DNA of 64,000 bases, from assembly GCA_016795365.1 (NCBI GenBank), contig JAEUHN010000029.1, forward strand, positions 248,001-312,000, read 5' to 3'. Origin of the DNA: Verrucomicrobiaceae bacterium. Lineage in GTDB: Bacteria; Verrucomicrobiota; Verrucomicrobiia; Verrucomicrobiales; Verrucomicrobiaceae. Shown piece after piece: positions 19,172 through 31,681 of the stretch (its first letter is position 1; each line of letters starts with the position of its first letter). The notes under the pieces were generated by a model that saw only the letters and a program-made list of their open reading frames with translations, did not search any database and was not told where the DNA came from. Made by a program: the position numbers and the translations under genes.

Positions 19172-20323
19172 ATGCGCATATTGCCTCGCCTCACACTCAT
19201 TCTCTCGATCAACTCCGTCGTATTCGCCCAACAAGCTCCGAAGCTCGACACGGGCGATACGAATGCCAAGTGGGCTACTGTATCGACGTTGAGACCAGCT
19301 TCGGCTGCGAACCTCACCGTTTACAAGGAACCCGGACGCTACGGTGGTTGGCCAGCGAATCAGGGGCTATGGCAGTGGGGTGATGAGCTCGTCGTGGGGT
19401 TCACGGCGACTTACTACAAGGAGACGACCACCGATCATCGCATCGACCGAACAAAGCCGAGCCATCGTGTGCAGGCTCGAAGTCTCGACGGCGGCAAGAC
19501 GTGGAAGGTCGAGGCGAATCAGCCTTACTCCGATCGGAAGAACGAGCCCGAGGCAGTTCCATTGAACGAACCACTCGACTTCACTGCTCCGGATTTCGTA
19601 ATGATGTTTCGCTTCAAGGGGCTGCACCTCGGCCCGTCGTGGTTCTACACGACGCATGATCGCTGCAAGACCTGGCGGGGACCGTTCAAGTTCGATGTCG
19701 AGGGTGTGGACGGCATCTCCACGCGCACCGACTTGATCCCGCTCGGGCCACGTGATTGCCTCATGTTTGGCAGTTGCGGCAAGAAGTCGGACAATAAAGA
19801 AGGCCGAGTCTTTTGTGCGCGCACCACCGATGGCGGGCTGACGTGGAAGTTGCAGGGCTTCATCGGCGAGGAGCCGCCGAAGGGTGGTTTCGCCATCATG
19901 CCCAGCAGCGTGCGATCGGCAGGCGGGGCGCTGCTTACCACGCTTCGCAAAGGCAAGCCAGACTACACCATCGAACTCTGGCGCAGCGATGACATTGGGA
20001 AGACTTGGTCAAAGATTAGCGATGTGACCGGCAACATCGGTGGCAATCCTCCGGCGACTGTGTTGCTGCCCGATGGTCGCCTCTGCGTGACCTACGGTTA
20101 TCGCAAAAAGCCCTTTGGCATCCGCGCACGCCTTAGCAGCGACGAAGGCAAGACGTGGACGCCCGAGATCATCCTCCGCGATGACGGCTTCGATGGCGAT
20201 CTGGGCTATCCACGCACGCTCATTCGGCCTGATGGTCGCGCGCTCACCGTTTACTACTTCAATGGCCCGCAAGGCTCCGACCGCTGCATTGAGGCCACGC
20301 TTTGGACTCCGCCTGCGAAGTAG
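19172..20323 (+). CDS. Exported sialidase-like protein
   Basis: A 383 aa single-propeller protein with a signal peptide (LPRLTLILSINSVVFAQQ). Five Asp boxes are visible: SLDGGKTW, THDRCKTW (degenerate), TTDGGLTW, SDDIGKTW and SSDEGKTW. An early Arg-containing RYGGWPANQG segment and late GYPRTLIRPDGRA match exo-alpha-sialidase-like proteins of Planctomycetota and Verrucomicrobiota. It probably works on glycans outside the cytoplasm. It is plus strand and close behind the pyruvyltransferase-like gene (51 bases) and ahead of a secreted esterase, so the three may form one transcription unit. Confidence 0.85.
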   Translation: MRILPRLTLILSINSVVFAQQAPKLDTGDTNAKWATVSTLRPASAANLTVYKEPGRYGGWPANQGLWQWGDELVVGFTATYYKETTTDHRIDRTKPSHRVQARSLDGGKTWKVEANQPYSDRKNEPEAVPLNEPLDFTAPDFVMMFRFKGLHLGPSWFYTTHDRCKTWRGPFKFDVEGVDGISTRTDLIPLGPRDCLMFGSCGKKSDNKEGRVFCARTTDGGLTWKLQGFIGEEPPKGGFAIMPSSVRSAGGALLTTLRKGKPDYTIELWRSDDIGKTWSKISDVTGNIGGNPPATVLLPDGRLCVTYGYRKKPFGIRARLSSDEGKTWTPEIILRDDGFDGDLGYPRTLIRPDGRALTVYYFNGPQGSDRCIEATLWTPPAK

Positions 20324-21420: not shown

Positions 21421-22482
21421 TCATGGCTGCGGTGCGTCCCAGATGGCCACGCCCATGTGATAGCGAGCATGATACTCGGAACTGCCAGAATACCAGGCGG
21501 TGACGAGCTTGCCATCGGCGCGCTGCACGGTGCTAGGGTAACCGCAGTCGCCAGTCTTCGTGTAAGCGATGCGAATGGGTTCGCCCCAAGTTTTACCCTC
21601 GTCGCTGCTGAACTTCGCAAGCACGCCGAGTTGATCGCCCGTCTTGATGCGACTGCCATACGCGAGGATGAGGCGACCATCCTTGAGTCTGGCAAGGTGA
21701 CCGTTGATCTCATTCTTTTGGGTCACACGATTCGGTGCACTCCAGGTAACTCCGTCGTCGTCTGAAGCGAACAAATCCATGGCCGTCTCACGCGCGGCCG
21801 CGAGCCAGTGTTTACCACCGAGGTGCAGAAGGGTTGTCTCGTTGCTCGTCGGTCCGATGACGCTGACGCGTTGCCACGTCTTGCCATCATCATCGCTGCG
21901 GAAATGCCAGGAGCGATAACCCTTGGTCTTGGTGCTTTTGGTGGGATCGGTGAACTCGCCGCCGTAGCACGAAACATGCAACGAGCCATCGTCGCCAATC
22001 TTGATGTCGCCGAATGGGATGTAGTGGCTCCAGCCAGCGTCGGGAGCGGGGAATTCTTTGATTTGCGCCCATGTCCGTCCTCCGTCGCCGCTGCGACAAA
22101 CCCACGTGCTCAGGATGTCATCGCGGAAGGCTGGCTGCTTCGGACGCTGCGATTGCTTCACATCGTTCCAGCCCGAGCACAGCACCAACAAGTCGCCATT
22201 CTTCGCCAAACCTGCAGCCACATTCATGCGGTTCGTGTGTGGATCGTTCGGAGCAGGGATGCCGCGCTTCTCCCAAAACTGACCATCCTTGCTATTCCAG
22301 CACTCGGCCGCTCCTGCCATCTGCCCGTGGCTCGGCTGCCCAAAGATGGTCGTGTTGATGCTTCCGTCGGGCATCAGTGTCAGATTCGGCCAGGCGCAAA
22401 CATTGTCGATGGCGACGAAGCGCTGAAAGTTTTGAGCGCAGAGTAGAGAGGTGAGAGCGAGGAGGACGAGTATGCTTTTCAT
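21421..22482 (-). CDS. Exported sialidase-like protein
   Basis: A 353 aa propeller protein. The start at 22482 puts a signal peptide at the N-terminus (SILVLLALTSLLCAQ); an in-frame ATG 33 bases further upstream adds a basic stretch and is less likely. Four Asp boxes are seen (SGDGGRTW, SDDDGKTW, SDDDGVTW, SSDEGKTW), with late GDCGYPSTVQRADGKLVTAWY, matching exo-sialidase-like families. It lies on the opposite strand from its neighbours, convergent with the esterase gene. Role on extracellular glycans is inferred. Confidence 0.85.
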   Translation of the reverse strand: MKSILVLLALTSLLCAQNFQRFVAIDNVCAWPNLTLMPDGSINTTIFGQPSHGQMAGAAECWNSKDGQFWEKRGIPAPNDPHTNRMNVAAGLAKNGDLLVLCSGWNDVKQSQRPKQPAFRDDILSTWVCRSGDGGRTWAQIKEFPAPDAGWSHYIPFGDIKIGDDGSLHVSCYGGEFTDPTKSTKTKGYRSWHFRSDDDGKTWQRVSVIGPTSNETTLLHLGGKHWLAAARETAMDLFASDDDGVTWSAPNRVTQKNEINGHLARLKDGRLILAYGSRIKTGDQLGVLAKFSSDEGKTWGEPIRIAYTKTGDCGYPSTVQRADGKLVTAWYSGSSEYHARYHMGVAIWDAPQP

Positions 22483-22923
22483 CGCTGGAACTACGTGTCG
22501 TCGTCTGGTTTTCACGCGCAGAACACCGTCGCTTTCTTCACATCGAGAAACCTACCGATGTCACGCCTTTTGTATCCCCTTCATCGTAGCGTCGTTCTTC
22601 CGCTCCTTGGATCCATTCGACCGATTCGTAGCCGAGGGTCGAGGAGCTCTCCACTCCAGGGTCAAACCGCCGCACCTGGAAGGTGCCATGGATGTCGTGC
22701 TTGTAGTCAGTCGTGCGATCTAGCCGCACACCTCGGCGAATCTACACTGCGGAGAGTGAACGACTTCCGCCGCCTGCAAACCAGGACGAGGTAGACTAGA
22801 AGCAGGCAGAGGCAGCTATTGACCTTGAGACCATCCACTTGAGGGAGTGCCCATTGCGGTGGCCCGCCACCCATTTGGAGATTTGTCGTCGAATCCGGGC
22901 TGATTCTGCGTTCTCCATGCTGC
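22483..22923. other. Non-coding stretch with no supported gene
   Basis: About 440 bases between divergent genes. Short open frames exist on both strands but have no ribosome-binding site, no family resemblance and codon choice unlike the neighbours. It must contain the promoters of both flanking genes; I could not pick out convincing -35/-10 elements or a terminator. Confidence 0.5.
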
Positions 22924-26305: not shown

Positions 26306-26451
26306 TCATAGTGGATTTCGTCCCGGAAGAAGGGCACGGGACGATGGTATTCCAGCAATGCCGGGCATGATTGAGCTGAACTCGCGCCTACGACCAAAGT
26401 CTGATACCGGAGTGTTTGACCTGCCACGGTGTGTCCCGTTTGGTAGGCCTC

Positions 26452-27081
26452 ATGCTCCGCCCCATCGCAGTCTCGCTCACTCGCCTTATCACGGGCGTGA
26501 ATGCCACGTGGGTAAACTGCGAGCCGCGAGCGGACCGGTTGCGCGTTTATTTTGCCAATCATGGCAGTCATCTCGATTTCGCGACGCTGTGGGCTTCACT
26601 GCCTTCTGCTGCGCGTGATCGAACGCGACCTGTCGCCGCCCGGGATTACTGGGGAAGAACAAGACTCACACGGGCGACCATCGAAGCGTTCAATGGATTG
26701 CTCATCGCTCGTGAGGGCATCACGAGACGCGACAATCCGATAGAACAGATGGCCGAAGCGATGCGTGCGGGACATTCGCTGATCTTGTTTCCCGAAGGCA
26801 CGCGATCGCGCGATGGCGCGATGGGCGAGTTCAAGTCGGGCTTGTATCATCTCGCTTCGAAGGTGCCTGAGGCGGAGCTGGTGCCGGTGTATTTGCAGAA
26901 CCTCAACCGCGTCCTGCCGAAGGGACATCTGCTGCCGATTCCCCTGATCAGCACGGTGGTCTTCGGGCCACCGATGCAGCTCACGGACGGCGAGTCGAAG
27001 CAGACGTTCCTTCAGCGTGCGAAGCAGGCGGTTGTGAATCTCATACCTCATCCAACTTCATCACCGACTCGCCACTCATGA
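26452..27081 (+). CDS. PlsC-type 1-acylglycerol-3-phosphate acyltransferase
   Basis: A 209 aa acyltransferase (221 if started at 26416). The HX4D catalytic motif is NHGSHLDF and the glycerol-phosphate-binding motif is FPEGTRSRDG. One N-terminal hydrophobic segment (LMLRPIAVSLTRLI) probably associates it with the inner membrane. The family acylates lysophosphatidic acid to phosphatidic acid. It is the first gene of a five-gene operon in which all junctions overlap or nearly so; the next gene starts 4 bases before its stop. Phosphatidic acid made here would be the direct substrate of the CdsA-like enzyme encoded next. Confidence 0.88.
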   Translation: MLRPIAVSLTRLITGVNATWVNCEPRADRLRVYFANHGSHLDFATLWASLPSAARDRTRPVAARDYWGRTRLTRATIEAFNGLLIAREGITRRDNPIEQMAEAMRAGHSLILFPEGTRSRDGAMGEFKSGLYHLASKVPEAELVPVYLQNLNRVLPKGHLLPIPLISTVVFGPPMQLTDGESKQTFLQRAKQAVVNLIPHPTSSPTRHS

Positions 27082-28028
27082 ACTGGTCCTCCCCTGTCAC
27101 CCATCATGTGCTCATCGTCGTGTTCGGCGTGTTGAGCATTGCCAGTCTCATTGGCTTCATCTTGTCCAGACGTGCGACGTCGGAGGAAGGCAAAACCACC
27201 GTCGCTAACTTGAACGCACGCACCAACAGCTGGTGGGTGATGGTGATCGTGATCTTCACCGCGCTATCGCTGGGCAACATGGGGGCCACCTTGATCTTTG
27301 CGCTCGTATCGTTTCTCGCGCTGCGCGAATTCCTCACAGTGACGCCGACTCGCGGCGCGGATCACGCTGCGCTGTTTGTCTCGTTCTTCATCGTGCTGCC
27401 TTACCAATACTGGCTCGTTCACACGCAGTGGTATGGGATGTTCGTCATCATGATCCCGGTCTATGCTTTCGTGCTCATCCCCATGCTGGCGACGCTCGGT
27501 GGCGATGTGACCGACTTCCTGGAGCGCAACGCGCGCACTCAATGGGGTCTCATGGTCTGCGTGTATTTCATCAGTCACATCCCCATGCTGATGAGTCTCA
27601 AGGTGGAGCCACTGCGGATGGGACCGGCGGGACCGGTGCTGTTCTTGATCGCCGTCACGCAGGGCTCGGATGTGTTTCAATACGTGTGGGGCAAGCTCTG
27701 CGGCAAGCGTCCCATCGTGCCGAAGCTCAGTCCGAAGAAGACGGTGGAAGGCTTTGTCGGCGGCGTGCTAACCGCAGCGGCGATGGGCGCAGGCATGTTC
27801 CGGCTCACGCCGTTCAATCCGTGGCAGGCCGGGGTGGTCGCGCTGCTGCTGTGCATCACGGGATTCTTTGGCGGACTGGTGATGTCCGCCATCAAACGCG
27901 CGCGCGGCATCAAGGACTGGGGCACACTCATCGAAGGTCACGGCGGCATGATGGACCGCATCGACTCGCTCTGCTTCTCCGCGCCCGTGTATTTCCATGT
28001 GCTCCGCTATTTCTTCGCGAGGGACTAA
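27078..28028 (+). CDS. ynbB: YnbB-like CDP-diacylglycerol synthase
   Basis: A 316 aa polytopic membrane protein with at least seven hydrophobic segments. The C-terminal CdsA signature is SAIKRARGIKD followed by GHGGMMDRIDS (about residues 272-300), with the KKTVEGFVGG segment also conserved. The Pro usually found before GHGG is replaced by Glu (LIEGHGG). The enzyme condenses phosphatidic acid with CTP to give CDP-diacylglycerol in the inner membrane. Size, hydrophobic layout and operon partners match E. coli YnbB, a CdsA paralogue, rather than the housekeeping cdsA. The start overlaps the acyltransferase stop by 4 bases. Confidence 0.9.
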   Translation: MNWSSPVTHHVLIVVFGVLSIASLIGFILSRRATSEEGKTTVANLNARTNSWWVMVIVIFTALSLGNMGATLIFALVSFLALREFLTVTPTRGADHAALFVSFFIVLPYQYWLVHTQWYGMFVIMIPVYAFVLIPMLATLGGDVTDFLERNARTQWGLMVCVYFISHIPMLMSLKVEPLRMGPAGPVLFLIAVTQGSDVFQYVWGKLCGKRPIVPKLSPKKTVEGFVGGVLTAAAMGAGMFRLTPFNPWQAGVVALLLCITGFFGGLVMSAIKRARGIKDWGTLIEGHGGMMDRIDSLCFSAPVYFHVLRYFFARD

Positions 28029-28041
28029 CCTGCTCACTACC

Positions 28042-28695
28042 ATGCCAAACGAACCCACTGCCCGCCGTCCGTTGAAGTCCCGAGGCACTGCCTGGGCGCA
28101 ATACTTCTCACGCGCCATGCTCGGCATCGGATTGAAACCCAACACCGTCTCTCTGCTGAGCCTCGTTTGTGCGGCCATCGGTGGTGCGTCCGCGTGGCAG
28201 GCATCGCTGCCAGGAACATCACTTTGGTTCTGGTTACTAGCAGCGACGGGCATTCAGCTCCGGCTGTTCTGCAATCTGATGGATGGCATGCTCGCGGTGG
28301 AAGGCGGGCTCAAGTCACCGACCGGTGAGTTGTTCAATGAAATTCCGGATCGTATCGCGGACGCGCTGATCCTTGTGCCGCTGGGTTATGCGACGCACAC
28401 CGATCTGGGCATCGCGCTGGGCTGGAGTGCAGCAGTCGGCGCGGTGTTCACAGCTTACATTCGCGCGGTCGGTGCCAGCCTGCTGCACAAGCACGACTTC
28501 TGCGGCCCAATGGCCAAGCCGCATCGCATGGCTGCCGCGACACTCGGATGTCTGGGCACGCTTGTGCTGCGTTGGCAGCATGTCGATGTGCCACTGATCC
28601 TCTGGACCATCGCTGTCATCAATATGGGTATCGTGATTACCAGTTGGCGGCGGATCGCCCATCTCGCGACAGCTCTGCGTCATCCTCAGTCATGA
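28042..28695 (+). CDS. ynbA: YnbA-like CDP-alcohol phosphatidyltransferase
   Basis: A 217 aa membrane protein of the CDP-alcohol phosphatidyltransferase family, which moves a phosphatidyl group from CDP-diacylglycerol to an alcohol headgroup. The family motif D-x2-DG-x2-AR-x8-G-x3-D-x3-D aligns at 78-103 but is altered: Asn78, Asp81-Gly82, Ala85-Val86, Gly95, Asn99, Asp103. So two metal-binding Asp are Asn and the Arg is Val. From memory E. coli YnbA also has Asn at the first and third positions but keeps AR, so Val86 is the local oddity. Start ATG 28042 is 13 bases after ynbB. Confidence 0.87.
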   Translation: MPNEPTARRPLKSRGTAWAQYFSRAMLGIGLKPNTVSLLSLVCAAIGGASAWQASLPGTSLWFWLLAATGIQLRLFCNLMDGMLAVEGGLKSPTGELFNEIPDRIADALILVPLGYATHTDLGIALGWSAAVGAVFTAYIRAVGASLLHKHDFCGPMAKPHRMAAATLGCLGTLVLRWQHVDVPLILWTIAVINMGIVITSWRRIAHLATALRHPQS

Positions 28696-30428
28696 ACTCA
28701 CAACGCCTCCAATTCACCACCGACGACGGCCTGTCGTTGCACTACAAAACCTGGAACGTCGAAGGTGCCAAGCGTGCAGTCGTGCTGCTCCATCGCGGTC
28801 ACGAACACGCCGACCGCTGGGACACCGTGGTGCCTTCTCTCACCATGCCAGGCACCGCCATCTATGCCTGGGAAGCACGTGGCCACGGCCAGTCACCGGG
28901 TCGTCGCGGTCACGCGGCAGGCTTCATGGAGTATGTGCGCGATCTCGACACCTTCTTCCATCATCTGCAAACAGCGCATGGCCTCGTGCCCGAGCAAACC
29001 GTGGTCATCGCGCACAGTGTCGGCGCGGTGATCGCCGCCACGTGGGTTCACGATTTCGCACCACGCATCGCCGGACTCGTGCTCGCCACGCCCGCGCTGG
29101 AGGTAAACCTCATCGTGCCCGGCGCGCTCACCAGCATCCGCGCGCTGCAACTTCTGAAGTCCGACGCCACCATCAAAAGCTACGTCCGTGGCTCCTGGCT
29201 CACGCGCGACCACAGTGCAGCGGCGATCTATGACGCCGACACCTCGATCTCGAAGGACATCTCCGCGAAGATCCTCACGGAACTCTTCGACACTGGCAAG
29301 CGAGTCGTCAGCGATGCCGAAGTCATGGATCGCCCGTTGCTTCTCTTCTCCGCCGGTGCGGACAAGGTGGTGAAGCGTCGCGCCATCGACGCGCTCTACG
29401 ACAACTACGGCAGCGACCAGAAAGTGCATCTCACGCTCAAAGGCGCGCGCCACGCGATTTTCCACGATCTCTGCCGCAACGAAGTATGCGGAGCGATCAA
29501 GCGGTTTGCCGAACGTTGCTTCGCCAGCCCCACGCCACCGCGACTCGAGGCTGATCTCAGTCATCCAGCGACCACCGCCGAGTTCAACGAATTAAAGAAG
29601 CCGCTGCCATCGCCTTCGCTCAAAGGGCTTTCGTTCATCATGCAACGCGCGAGCCTTGGATCGCTTGGAAAGTTGAGCAAAGGCATCCGCATTGGCCATG
29701 CCACCGGCTTCGACTCCGGCGAGTCGCTAGACTACGTCTATGAAAACAAGGCGCGCGGCGATCTGCTCCTCGGCAAGGTCATCGACTACTTCTATCTCAA
29801 CGCTATCGGCTGGCGCGGCATCCGTCAGCGTCGCGCGTGCATGAATCAGGCGCTGCGTTTCGCGCTGCAACAGGTCCGCTCGTCAAACTTGCCGTTGCAA
29901 CTCATGGACGTGGCGGGCGGTGCGGGCCGCTACTTGCTCGACGTGCTCGGCGATGCGGAGTGCGGCCAGGACTTGCGCGTGCTTTGCCGGGACTGGAGTG
30001 AGTCCGCGCTTGCCACCGGTCGTGCCACCGCCCAGCAGATGGGTTTGACGGACCGCATCGAGCACGTGCGCGGTGATGCCTTTGATGAAAACTTGCTCGC
30101 CTCTGTGCAGCCGAAACCCAGCATCGCCGTCGTCTCCGGTTTGTATGAACTCTTCCCCGAGAACGACAAACTCCATCGTTCCCTGCGCGGCATCTTCAGC
30201 GCTGTGAATCCTGGTGGCTGGATCATTTACACCGGCCAGCCCTGGCATCCGCAGGTGGAAATGATCGCGCGCACACTGACGAATCGTGACGGGCAATACT
30301 GGATCATGCGGCGGCGGCCCCAGGGTGAAATGGATGCACTGGTCGAGGCCTCTGGCTTCAAGAAGCAGAAGCAGTGGATCGATGACTTCGGCATCTTCAC
30401 AGTGAGCATCGCACGCAAGCCCGCATGA
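28692..30428 (+). CDS. ynbC: YnbC-like alpha/beta hydrolase + SAM methyltransferase
   Basis: A 578 aa two-domain protein. Residues 1-270 are a monoacylglycerol-lipase-like alpha/beta hydrolase: LLHRGHEHADRW (oxyanion), AWEARGHGQSPG, nucleophile Ser109 in AHSVG, SAGADKVV (Asp) and KGARHAIFHD (His). Residues 330-578 are a class I methyltransferase with the SAM loop LMDVAGGAGR at 404-413, a GDAFDEN acidic motif and late NPGGWIIYTGQPWHPQ. This matches E. coli YnbC in length (585 aa) and domain order. It probably modifies a lipid or headgroup intermediate, for example by deacylation and methylation; that is inference. ATGA overlap with ynbA. Confidence 0.92.
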   Translation: MNSQRLQFTTDDGLSLHYKTWNVEGAKRAVVLLHRGHEHADRWDTVVPSLTMPGTAIYAWEARGHGQSPGRRGHAAGFMEYVRDLDTFFHHLQTAHGLVPEQTVVIAHSVGAVIAATWVHDFAPRIAGLVLATPALEVNLIVPGALTSIRALQLLKSDATIKSYVRGSWLTRDHSAAAIYDADTSISKDISAKILTELFDTGKRVVSDAEVMDRPLLLFSAGADKVVKRRAIDALYDNYGSDQKVHLTLKGARHAIFHDLCRNEVCGAIKRFAERCFASPTPPRLEADLSHPATTAEFNELKKPLPSPSLKGLSFIMQRASLGSLGKLSKGIRIGHATGFDSGESLDYVYENKARGDLLLGKVIDYFYLNAIGWRGIRQRRACMNQALRFALQQVRSSNLPLQLMDVAGGAGRYLLDVLGDAECGQDLRVLCRDWSESALATGRATAQQMGLTDRIEHVRGDAFDENLLASVQPKPSIAVVSGLYELFPENDKLHRSLRGIFSAVNPGGWIIYTGQPWHPQVEMIARTLTNRDGQYWIMRRRPQGEMDALVEASGFKKQKQWIDDFGIFTVSIARKPA

Positions 30429-31681
30429 ACCGCACCCCACGCGAGCCCGGCCTTTTTTGGCCAGCTGTGTTGCGACTCGCGCTCGCAGGCGCGGTTTTCA
30501 TCGGCGTCTATGGCGCGTGCAACCAGCTCACGGCACTGCGCGAGCCGGTGCCCACCCTGATGCTGCCATGGGAGATTCACATGCCGTTCGTGAAGGAGTT
30601 CGTAGTGCCGTATTGGACGCTCGACGTCTTTTTCTGTGGCGCATTCTTTCTGTGCGCCAGCCGCGCGCAGCTCAACCTGCTGACGAAGCGCCTCATCGCT
30701 GTCACGCTCGTGAGCGGTCTGTTCTACTTGCTCTTCCCGCTGAAGCTCGGATTCCCTCGTCCAATGCCTGAGGGCTGGACCGCGCCGTGGTTCAAGGCGC
30801 TCTACTTCAATGACCTGCCCTACAACCTCGCTCCGTCGCTGCACATCAGTCTGCGCTCCCTCGTGTGGGTATTCTACGGGGCGGTGCTCACAGGTTGGAC
30901 ACGCCGGGTAGTGAAGGTTTGGTTCATGCTTATCGGTGCCTCGACCTTGCTCGTCTGGCAGCATCACCTCGTCGATGTTGCGAGCGGCTTCGTGATGGGT
31001 TGGGCCATCGCGGCCTTGATCCCCGACCCCCAGCAAGCCCACACGGTCAATCCGTCGCGCAAACTCGCACTTCGCTACGGCACCGGCGCACTGGTGTGTG
31101 GACTGCTCTGCTTTGTGTCCGTGCTCTTCGTGTGGCCCGCAGTGGCATGCGGCATCCTTGCGCTCGCCTATGCGACGGGACACTCGCGTTTGCTAGGCAA
31201 AGAGAATGGCACGCTCTCGCCGTCCGCCGAGTGGTGCCTGCTGCCGGTGTTGCTAGTCACCGCGCTTGTTCAACGGCAGTGGCTCCAACGTCAGCCCGGC
31301 TGGCGTGAGGTGACCGATGGCGTCTTTTTTGGCCGCAAAGTCACCAGCGCCGAAGCCAGCGAGCTGACGAAAGACGGCAGCCTCGCCGTGCTCGATCTTA
31401 CCGCTGAGTCAAATGCGCCTGTCGCCTTCCGCGAGCACGCGCACTACTACAACCTCCCGCTGCTCGACCTCGTGCCACTCAAGCCCGAGCACATAACTAC
31501 CGCGATTCAGATCATCCGCGAGCAGCGTGCCGCCGGACGTCGTGTGTATTTGCACTGCCAGCTAGGCTTGCAACGATCTGCGTTGATCGCTGCGCACTGG
31601 CTATGGCATGAGGGCAAGGTCACAGCCCTTGAAGAAGCCGTCGAACAGGTGCGATCGATCGAGCCGACTGTGGTCATCTGA
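30425..31681 (+). CDS. ynbD: YnbD-like PAP2 + dual-specificity phosphatase
   Basis: A 418 aa membrane protein. The first 300 residues are polytopic with a PAP2-like phosphatase signature (APSLHIS and HHLVDVASG, the two His motifs). The soluble C-terminal third is a dual-specificity/PTP domain with the P-loop HCQLGLQRSA, catalytic Cys378 and Arg384. PAP2 enzymes dephosphorylate lipid phosphates; the PTP-like domain resembles those that remove headgroup phosphates (compare PTPMT1 acting on PGP). It could therefore release the final neutral or singly charged lipid of this operon. Overlaps ynbC by 4 bases and is the last gene of the operon; matches E. coli YnbD architecture. Confidence 0.92.
   Translation: MNRTPREPGLFWPAVLRLALAGAVFIGVYGACNQLTALREPVPTLMLPWEIHMPFVKEFVVPYWTLDVFFCGAFFLCASRAQLNLLTKRLIAVTLVSGLFYLLFPLKLGFPRPMPEGWTAPWFKALYFNDLPYNLAPSLHISLRSLVWVFYGAVLTGWTRRVVKVWFMLIGASTLLVWQHHLVDVASGFVMGWAIAALIPDPQQAHTVNPSRKLALRYGTGALVCGLLCFVSVLFVWPAVACGILALAYATGHSRLLGKENGTLSPSAEWCLLPVLLVTALVQRQWLQRQPGWREVTDGVFFGRKVTSAEASELTKDGSLAVLDLTAESNAPVAFREHAHYYNLPLLDLVPLKPEHITTAIQIIREQRAAGRRVYLHCQLGLQRSALIAAHWLWHEGKVTALEEAVEQVRSIEPTVVI

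Follow-up and report, generated by a model that had tools for sequence, protein, structure and literature searches.

What might five adjoining lipid-enzyme genes of a Prosthecobacter-like bacterium make, when the E. coli operon that they resemble, ynbA-D, has itself no established product? The genes lie tightly packed on the + strand at 26452-31681 of the window (the whole stretch of DNA analyzed, 64,000 nucleotides). The first-pass annotation had placed a five-gene lipid operon here, and all of its ORFs are present, in the order plsC-ynbB-ynbA-ynbC-ynbD. The tight packing that it described is borne out by 4-bp ATGA overlaps at three of the gene junctions and a 13-bp gap at the other, if ynbA starts at 28042. 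A sigma-70 promoter scan of the locus returned no match and every match of a terminator scan was intragenic, both scans being uninformative for this phylum.

The gene set in the window and in E. coli

The first gene, plsC (26452..27081), encodes a lysophospholipid acyltransferase (Pfam PF01553, Acyltransferase; E 7.8e-19) of 209 aa from the ATG at 26452, with a TTG at 26416 as an alternative in-frame start. The protein contains NHx4D and FPEGTR, and NHx4D together with FPEG is found in 72 of 72 PlsC relatives (FPEGTR in 70, FPEGSR in 2). The adjoining ynbB (27078..28028) encodes a predicted second, non-housekeeping CDP-diacylglycerol synthase. It combines a CTP_transf_1 domain (PF01148; E 6e-66) with the CdsA signature, which is present in 73/76 YnbB relatives, and the only further PF01148 gene of the host genome lies on contig C55. 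A YnbB-type protein beyond the housekeeping CdsA occurs in all 29 genomes with YnbA. The third gene, ynbA (28042..28695, or from 27997), encodes a CDP-alcohol phosphotransferase of a family with a non-canonical N-motif, here of the type that we label 'W'. The last two genes encode fusions, of a monoacylglycerol-lipase-like hydrolase to a SAM methyltransferase in ynbC (28692..30428) and of a PAP2-superfamily membrane domain to a dual-specificity phosphatase in ynbD (30425..31681).

BLASTP against E. coli K-12 identifies homologues of YnbA (24% over 136 aa, E 8e-8), YnbB (40% identity), YnbC (42% over the full length of 574 aa) and YnbD (33% identity). Together with the Pfam domains, these matches confirm the gene families and both fusions named in the first-pass annotation. 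E. coli K-12 ynbABCD (b1408-b1411) is likewise a tight operon of the same four families with the same two fusions. However, its order is ynbA-ynbB-ynbC-ynbD without plsC, a content and order that the window does not share, and its YnbA belongs to another lineage, with Val for the Arg after D4. The proposed match to E. coli ynbA-D hence stands for families and fusions and fails for gene order and YnbA lineage. In Pseudomonas/Xanthomonas-type sets (ynbA-ynbC-ynbD-plsC-ynbB), all five families lie within about 5-7 kb and PlsC and YnbB are ~50% identical to those of the window, but the order differs and an E-type YnbA lies beside ynbC. Both YnbA types are present in some Xanthomonadaceae; 'W' (the window's) and 'E' are working labels for types that do not form two clean clades. 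Among the papers searched, none treats the ynb operon as a lipid pathway and only single-gene data for YnbB and YnbD were found; none assigns a function to E. coli ynbA-D, in line with the earlier statement that its product lipid is not established.

PlsC membership and two separable modules

The occurrence of the gene set across genomes was surveyed in 63 loci from other genomes with enough flanking sequence. All five families lie together in 55 of these loci, in several phyla, and clustering is thus beyond chance. PlsC regularly belongs to the set and K-12 is the exception: PlsC is present in 57/63 loci and is carried by an E. coli plasmid copy of the set, while the K-12 chromosome lacks it. 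The description of PlsC as an addition in front of the E. coli set is accordingly rejected.

The set consists of two separable modules, the YnbA-PlsC-YnbB triad and the YnbC-YnbD pair. Many genomes carry the triad by itself; in some genomes YnbC-YnbD lies far from the triad, and in others the triad occurs without YnbC-YnbD. The view of the locus as one five-gene unit is in this respect incomplete. YnbA is present in 11/11 Verrucomicrobiota genomes with full-length YnbC (Fisher 1e-12, which ignores relatedness). On a Pseudanabaena plasmid, a Methyltransf_20 gene without the hydrolase adjoins the ynbA-plsC-ynbB triad. YnbC relatives number at least 563 in one scan of species genomes, and none were found among viral contigs. 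In loci L032-L034, a large gene whose product has an AMP-ligase domain neighbors ynbC-ynbD. One locus includes an MGDG-synthase-like enzyme, and sugar enzymes are no regular part of the loci.

Active sites of YnbA, YnbC and YnbD

The ynbA product has no Pfam match at E<=0.001 and matches the NCBIfam archaetidylinositol-phosphate synthase at 3e-17, under the model's own cut-off. An alignment profile of YnbA matches solved PIP synthases (E 1e-16). The AlphaFold model (pLDDT 90) contains the six-transmembrane-helix CDP-alcohol phosphotransferase fold and reaches Z 18-21 to PIPS/DIPPS structures, compared with 12.6-15.1 to CPT, PGS, and PSS. The identity of ynbA is based on the NCBIfam match, the profile match and the predicted fold taken together.

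The canonical motif of CDP-alcohol phosphotransferases is D1xxD2G1xxAR...G2xxxD3xxxD4. Direct reading of the window's YnbA (28273..28350) gives NxxDGxxAV...GxxxNExxD instead, with the residues N78-xx-D81-G-xx-A-V ... G95-xxx-N99-E-xx-D103. Almost all of ~120 YnbA sequences have Asn in place of D1 and D3, which belong to the four metal-binding aspartates, and the motif Arg is Val in the window. Hence, phosphotransfer activity of YnbA cannot be assumed. In the same ~120 sequences, conservation is near-total at D2 and D4, at the equivalent of D97, at the Asn/Glu that are new to the motif and at three basic residues.

In M. tuberculosis, R155 and R195 of MtPgsA1 hold inositol phosphate, and R94 has been described as conserved in inositol-phosphate users (PMC6506517). 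Equivalents of R155 and R195 are kept across the ~120 YnbA sequences. In the window, R162, R204, and R104 correspond to R155, R195, and R94, and K159 is also present; E. coli-type YnbA, of a different lineage, has no R94 equivalent. YnbA shares the fold, the phosphate-binding Arg pair, D2 and D4 with M. tuberculosis PgsA1, R. salmoninarum RsPIPS, and A. fulgidus AF2299/DIPPS, but differs from them by Asn at D1/D3, an extra Glu/Asp after D3 and a new Arg four residues ahead of D1. It also differs in its host genome, in which no inositol-phosphate synthase was detected: PF01658 was found neither in this genome (97% complete) nor in 10/11 other relatives searched.

YnbC consists of a Hydrolase_4 domain (28767..29468; PF12146, E 1e-54) and a Methyltransf_20 domain (29496..30419; PF12147, E 6e-114). 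Its alpha/beta hydrolase carries the Ser-Asp-His triad of the monoacylglycerol lipase family (S109, D224, and H254), which is invariant among relatives, as is the methyltransferase motif. The hydrolase domain matches monoglyceride lipases in the PDB at 2e-29. Domain and triad are common to monoacylglycerol lipases (M. tuberculosis, human MGL), whereas fusion to Methyltransf_20 sets YnbC apart. For the latter domain, no solved relative is close enough to suggest a substrate.

In YnbD, the PAP2 core (30692..31021; PF01569, E 1e-6) contains [KR]x4RP, APSLH, and SxLxxxQHHxxD, and PAP2_3 matches 11/17 family members. These motifs are not of PgpB type (Kx6RP, PSGH, SRx5Hx3D), as YnbD has [KR]x4RP, PSLH, and S-x-L-x4-HHxxD, but the catalytic His/His/Asp of PAP2 is retained. 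In the AlphaFold model (pLDDT 86), the structures nearest to residues 3-205 are IPC synthase, SMSr, and Aur1, at Z 13.6-13.8 over 190-202 residues, values that helical bundles can reach by their arrangement. No sequence-level relation of the membrane domain to these headgroup transferases was detected; the His-His-Asp motif is shared, while YnbD has a C-terminal dual-specificity phosphatase in addition. PgpB-type phosphatases are absent from the VIA list for YnbD, an absence that proves nothing. The dual-specificity phosphatase domain (31325..31672; DSPc, PF00782, E 3e-10) carries HCQLGLQRS, a Cx5R(S/T) signature, and pattern searches find Cx5R[ST] in 86/87 YnbD relatives, two of these probably spurious. 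Relatives of this domain are Tk-PTP, ShufPTP, and PTPMT1, the last of which is a PGP phosphatase. YnbD shares the fold and Cx5R with PTPMT1, but E. coli YnbD fails to complement PGP phosphatase loss (PMC7413402).

A candidate lipid pathway and its alternatives

We consider the chances about even that the five genes form a dedicated phospholipid pathway apart from housekeeping lipid synthesis, which would convert CDP-diacylglycerol to a phosphatidyl-polyol-phosphate and then process it. The reactions, their order and the product are those that we propose from families and active sites. PlsC would acylate lysophosphatidate to phosphatidate, and YnbB would convert this to CDP-diacylglycerol reserved for the pathway. 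YnbA, PIP-synthase-like with a rewired metal site, might form phosphatidyl-X-phosphate by transfer of phosphatidyl to some phosphorylated alcohol that is not de novo inositol phosphate. Up to this point, the route from lysophosphatidate to phosphatidyl-X is plausible and agrees with that of the first-pass annotation. YnbC and YnbD would act on the YnbA product. The phosphatase domain of YnbD may remove the terminal phosphate; its PAP2 domain may also remove phosphate or move the headgroup to another lipid with release of diacylglycerol, as in SMS/IPC synthase. The YnbC methyltransferase could methylate either the headgroup or the product, and the fused hydrolase could trim an acyl chain or degrade the released glyceride.

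A private substrate is consistent with the inability of E. coli YnbB to complement cdsA (PMC6362211) and with the finding that E. coli YnbD supplies no phosphatase activity for PGP or for C55-PP (PMC7413402). Further points in favor are the clustering, the occurrence of YnbC only with YnbA, the extra YnbB, the triad standing alone, the PIPS-like fold and arginines of YnbA, the PTPMT1-related phosphatase, the monoacylglycerol-lipase-like hydrolase and the lone methyltransferase with the triad. Points against are the altered YnbA motif, the separation of YnbC-YnbD and triad in some genomes, the match of YnbD to SMS/IPCS at the level of a helical bundle, and the different product, the glycolipid MPIase, that is raised by overexpression of E. 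coli YnbB (PMC6362211).

Remodeling or damage repair of membrane phospholipids is an unlikely alternative, in which YnbC would deacylate, PlsC reacylate, and YnbB/YnbA route phosphatidate and diacylglycerol back to PG or other ordinary phospholipids. It would explain a monoacylglycerol-lipase-like hydrolase together with an acyltransferase and gains from the AMP-ligase-domain gene beside ynbC-ynbD in three loci. It conflicts with the E. coli data on YnbD as PGP phosphatase (PMC7413402) and on YnbB, which gives no CDP-DAG for bulk lipid (PMC6362211); moreover, a methyltransferase kept without the hydrolase does not fit, and YnbA resembles PIP synthase more closely than PGP synthase. We regard as rather unlikely an MPIase-like or other sugar-pyrophosphate-diacylglycerol, for which YnbB and/or YnbA would pass the phosphatidyl of CDP-DAG to a sugar-1-phosphate. 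The rise of MPIase on YnbB overproduction in E. coli speaks for it, and the authors of that study proposed GlcNAc-PP-DAG synthesis by CdsA/YnbB, but ynbB deletion did not significantly change the MPIase level (PMC6362211). The phosphate-binding arginines agree with such an acceptor, and its nucleophile, a phosphate, needs no general base, with which the loss of two metal-binding aspartates would be consistent; yet D4, the base in MtPgsA1, is retained, and sugar enzymes are not regular in the loci.

Two further alternatives turn on YnbA itself. That it is catalytically dead or regulatory, with the product coming from YnbB (CDP-DAG) and the YnbC-YnbD pair alone, would suit the family-wide replacement of two signature aspartates, but the near-invariant residues around them argue for a working site and YnbC never occurs without YnbA in the phylum sample; we consider this decidedly unlikely. 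Very improbable, finally, is a true phosphatidylinositol-phosphate synthase leading to phosphatidylinositol or an inositol-phosphate sphingolipid-like product. R104, R162, R204, and K159 and the proximity of the YnbD membrane domain to IPC synthase speak for it; Asn at D1 and D3 speaks against it, and phosphatidylinositol as product is weakened because PF01658 is missing.

Returning to the dedicated pathway, E. coli ynbA-D is among the lipid-enzyme operons still uncharacterized in the best-studied bacterium. PlsC membership, the separability of triad and pair, and the fixed non-canonical site of YnbA turn this operon into a testable pathway. Two questions follow: the identity of the phosphorylated alcohol that YnbA accepts, and whether Asn in place of D1 and D3 is compatible with activity of a CDP-alcohol phosphotransferase. 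A more specific reading is tentative and on balance doubtful: YnbA-type proteins may form a distinct class of CDP-alcohol phosphotransferases with a rewired metal site for a non-inositol polyol phosphate, YnbD, as a phosphatase fused to an SMS/IPC-synthase-like transferase, may pass the headgroup on to another lipid, and methylation by YnbC may follow. If true, this would imply an undescribed class of methylated lipids in bacteria, E. coli among them, of five or more phyla.

Composition of the set and membership of PlsC

Five consecutive forward-strand genes, plsC (26452-27081; Pfam Acyltransferase), ynbB (27078-28028; CTP_transf_1), ynbA (28042-28695; CDP-alcohol phosphotransferase-type by PIP synthase profile match and predicted fold), ynbC (28692-30428; Hydrolase_4 and Methyltransf_20) and ynbD (30425-31681; PAP2 and DSPc), overlap by ATGA at three junctions and lie 13 bp apart at the fourth. 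An alpha/beta hydrolase gene lies upstream and a reverse-strand O6-methylguanine-DNA methyltransferase gene downstream. Hence, the set ends against non-member genes on both sides. Nearby, 19172-20323 and 21421-22515 each encode a secreted protein that contains BNR/sialidase-like SxDxGxTW repeats and bears no relation to the operon. The 6.7-Mb genome (G000) contains one further CdsA-family gene, three PF01066 genes outside the operon and five PF01553 acyltransferase genes besides plsC; thus, the operon copies are additional to housekeeping enzymes. The closest relatives at the locus belong to Prosthecobacter, Brevifollis and further Verrucomicrobiota (YnbC identity 82-92%).

The kinship with E. 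coli ynbA-D claimed in the first-pass annotation is borne out by homology of all four proteins to those of K-12 (YnbA 24%, YnbB 40%, YnbC 42%, YnbD 33% identity), although K-12 has the order ynbA-ynbB-ynbC-ynbD and lacks plsC. Species genomes were scanned with an alignment of YnbC, which yielded 563 relatives; the best 80 of these were retained. At 63 loci with sufficient flank, YnbC has YnbA (62), YnbD (61), YnbB (58) and PlsC (57) nearby, and 55 carry all five families. The order ynbA-ynbC-ynbD-plsC-ynbB is most frequent (45 loci), besides 11 other arrangements or partial sets. A Fusobacterium record shows ynbC-ynbA-ynbB. A Burkholderia plasmid carries all five genes, and E. coli plasmid pFHI_NMBU_11_02 (L181, 4815-8943) has the order ynbA-ynbB-plsC-ynbC, in which plsC separates ynbB from ynbC, and retains only a remnant of ynbD; its ynbA is absent from the gene table, the homology being divided between two frames. 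PlsC is a member of the set: the earlier view of a PlsC added in front inverts the usual case, since PlsC is usual at these loci and present on E. coli, Burkholderia and cyanobacterial plasmids. The gene set in the window is complete, and it is one already known and widespread rather than a novel type of operon. In Gamma- and Betaproteobacteria, a protein of ~150-160 residues without a Pfam match is encoded directly 3' of ynbD (L052, 12174-12656; L183, 10158-10607), a possible sixth member.

Two modules

Among 289 Verrucomicrobiota genomes, 11 encode full-length YnbC and 29 YnbA-type proteins (31 at E<=1e-12, including two weak hits). YnbA occurs in all 11 YnbC genomes (Fisher 1e-12, a value that ignores relatedness of the genomes), and all 29 YnbA genomes encode a YnbB-type protein besides CdsA. 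Many genomes of the sample have ynbA-plsC-ynbB, in variable order, without YnbC. In G066 and G258, the ynbC-ynbD pair is distant from this triad, and in G188, G191 and G200 every part is scattered. In this sample, YnbC always occurs with YnbA while the triad often occurs without YnbC, so the triad provides something for YnbC-YnbD and its product has a separate use too. On the cyanobacterial plasmid ABRG53d of Pseudanabaena (L180, 3727-6882), ynbA-ynbB-plsC is followed by a stand-alone Methyltransf_20 protein, with neither hydrolase nor ynbD and with adjoining nitrogen-fixation genes. This points to methylation rather than hydrolysis as the nearer partner of the triad. At three loci (L166, 9754-10341; L161, 4226-4765; L171, 5789-6133), stand-alone triads or ynbA adjoin genes for small membrane proteins that are VTT-domain-like, EamA-like or lack a Pfam match; these are candidate flippases or scramblases.

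Fold and active site of YnbA

A Pfam search with the window YnbA gave no match at E<=0.001, and its NCBIfam matches, to archaetidylinositol-phosphate synthase, are all sub-threshold. A profile built from 31 relatives recovers solved PIP synthases at 1e-16. The AlphaFold model (pLDDT 90) resembles PIPS, AF2299 and DIPPS (Z 18-21) more closely than choline phosphotransferase, PGP synthase and PS synthase (Z 12.6-15.1).

In canonical CDP-alcohol phosphotransferases, the four aspartates of the motif D1xxD2G1xxAR...G2xxxD3xxxD4 bind a pair of metals (PMC6506517). In an alignment of 122 YnbA sequences, in which certain genomes are sampled twice, Asn occupies D1 in 119 and D3 in 117. D2 and D4 are retained, Glu or Asp directly follows D3, and an Arg stands four residues N-terminal to D1. 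All four aspartates are intact in the PgsA- and PssA-like proteins of G000. The clearest outlier, L155, groups with M. tuberculosis PgsA1 and probably lies outside the family. In MtPgsA1, R155 and R195 bind inositol phosphate, and R94 is conserved among inositol-phosphate users (PMC6506517). The R155 and R195 equivalents are kept in the YnbA family, and the R152 position is Lys. The R94 equivalent is Arg in window-type and Val, Ile or Leu in E. coli-type YnbA, working labels that do not form two clean clades; most window-type proteins have Val, Leu or Ile in place of the motif Arg that follows A75. The retained phosphate pocket supports a phosphorylated acceptor, whereas the metal site is altered. 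As no inositol-phosphate synthase was detected in G000 or in 10 of 11 relatives searched, de novo inositol phosphate is probably not this acceptor. Three Lysobacter and Xanthomonas clusters (L102, L074, L110) each contain two YnbA-type genes, the E. coli-type adjoining ynbC and the window-type plsC-ynbB; the second gene of Xanthomonas prunicola carries a degenerate motif.

YnbC, YnbD and the proposed pathway

The dual-specificity phosphatase (DSP) domain of YnbD matches Tk-PTP, ShufPTP and PTPMT1 and has an intact Cx5R site. In its membrane domain, the two His and the Asp of PAP2 are retained, but PSLH and [KR]x4RP replace PSGH and Kx6RP. The closest structures to this domain are IPC synthase, SMSr and Aur1, with Z 13.6-13.8 across 190-202 residues; among helical membrane bundles such a likeness is suggestive but does not amount to proof, and no sequence-level match was found. 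SMSr is described as also capable of releasing diacylglycerol from glycerophospholipids (PMC7988496). At L026 (5613-6881), an MGDG-synthase-like glycosyltransferase gene lies directly 3' of ynbC-ynbD, compatible with diacylglycerol release by YnbD. In YnbC, the monoglyceride-lipase-like hydrolase domain has an invariant Ser-Asp-His, and the methyltransferase domain has no informative relative among solved structures. At L028 (5704-7475), ynbC-plsC-ynbB-ynbA is directly preceded by genes for a stand-alone phosphatase of the DSP type and, next to ynbC, a Sulfotransfer_3 protein; this set possibly makes a sulfated variant of the lipid.

E. coli YnbB does not complement cdsA, and its overproduction raises MPIase (PMC6362211); E. 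coli YnbD supplies neither PGP nor C55-PP phosphatase activity (PMC7413402). The failures of YnbB and YnbD fit a private substrate. The analysis shows the gene families, their active-site residues, linkage and co-occurrence, and a predicted fold; we infer each reaction, the product and how the late steps are ordered. Most likely, PlsC would form PA, YnbB CDP-DAG and YnbA a phosphatidyl-X-phosphate, which the DSP domain of YnbD would convert to phosphatidyl-X; the YnbD membrane domain may act in dephosphorylation or headgroup transfer, and YnbC would contribute methylation and acyl hydrolysis. What makes the set interesting is that YnbA has a fixed, non-canonical active site and that the architecture is modular.
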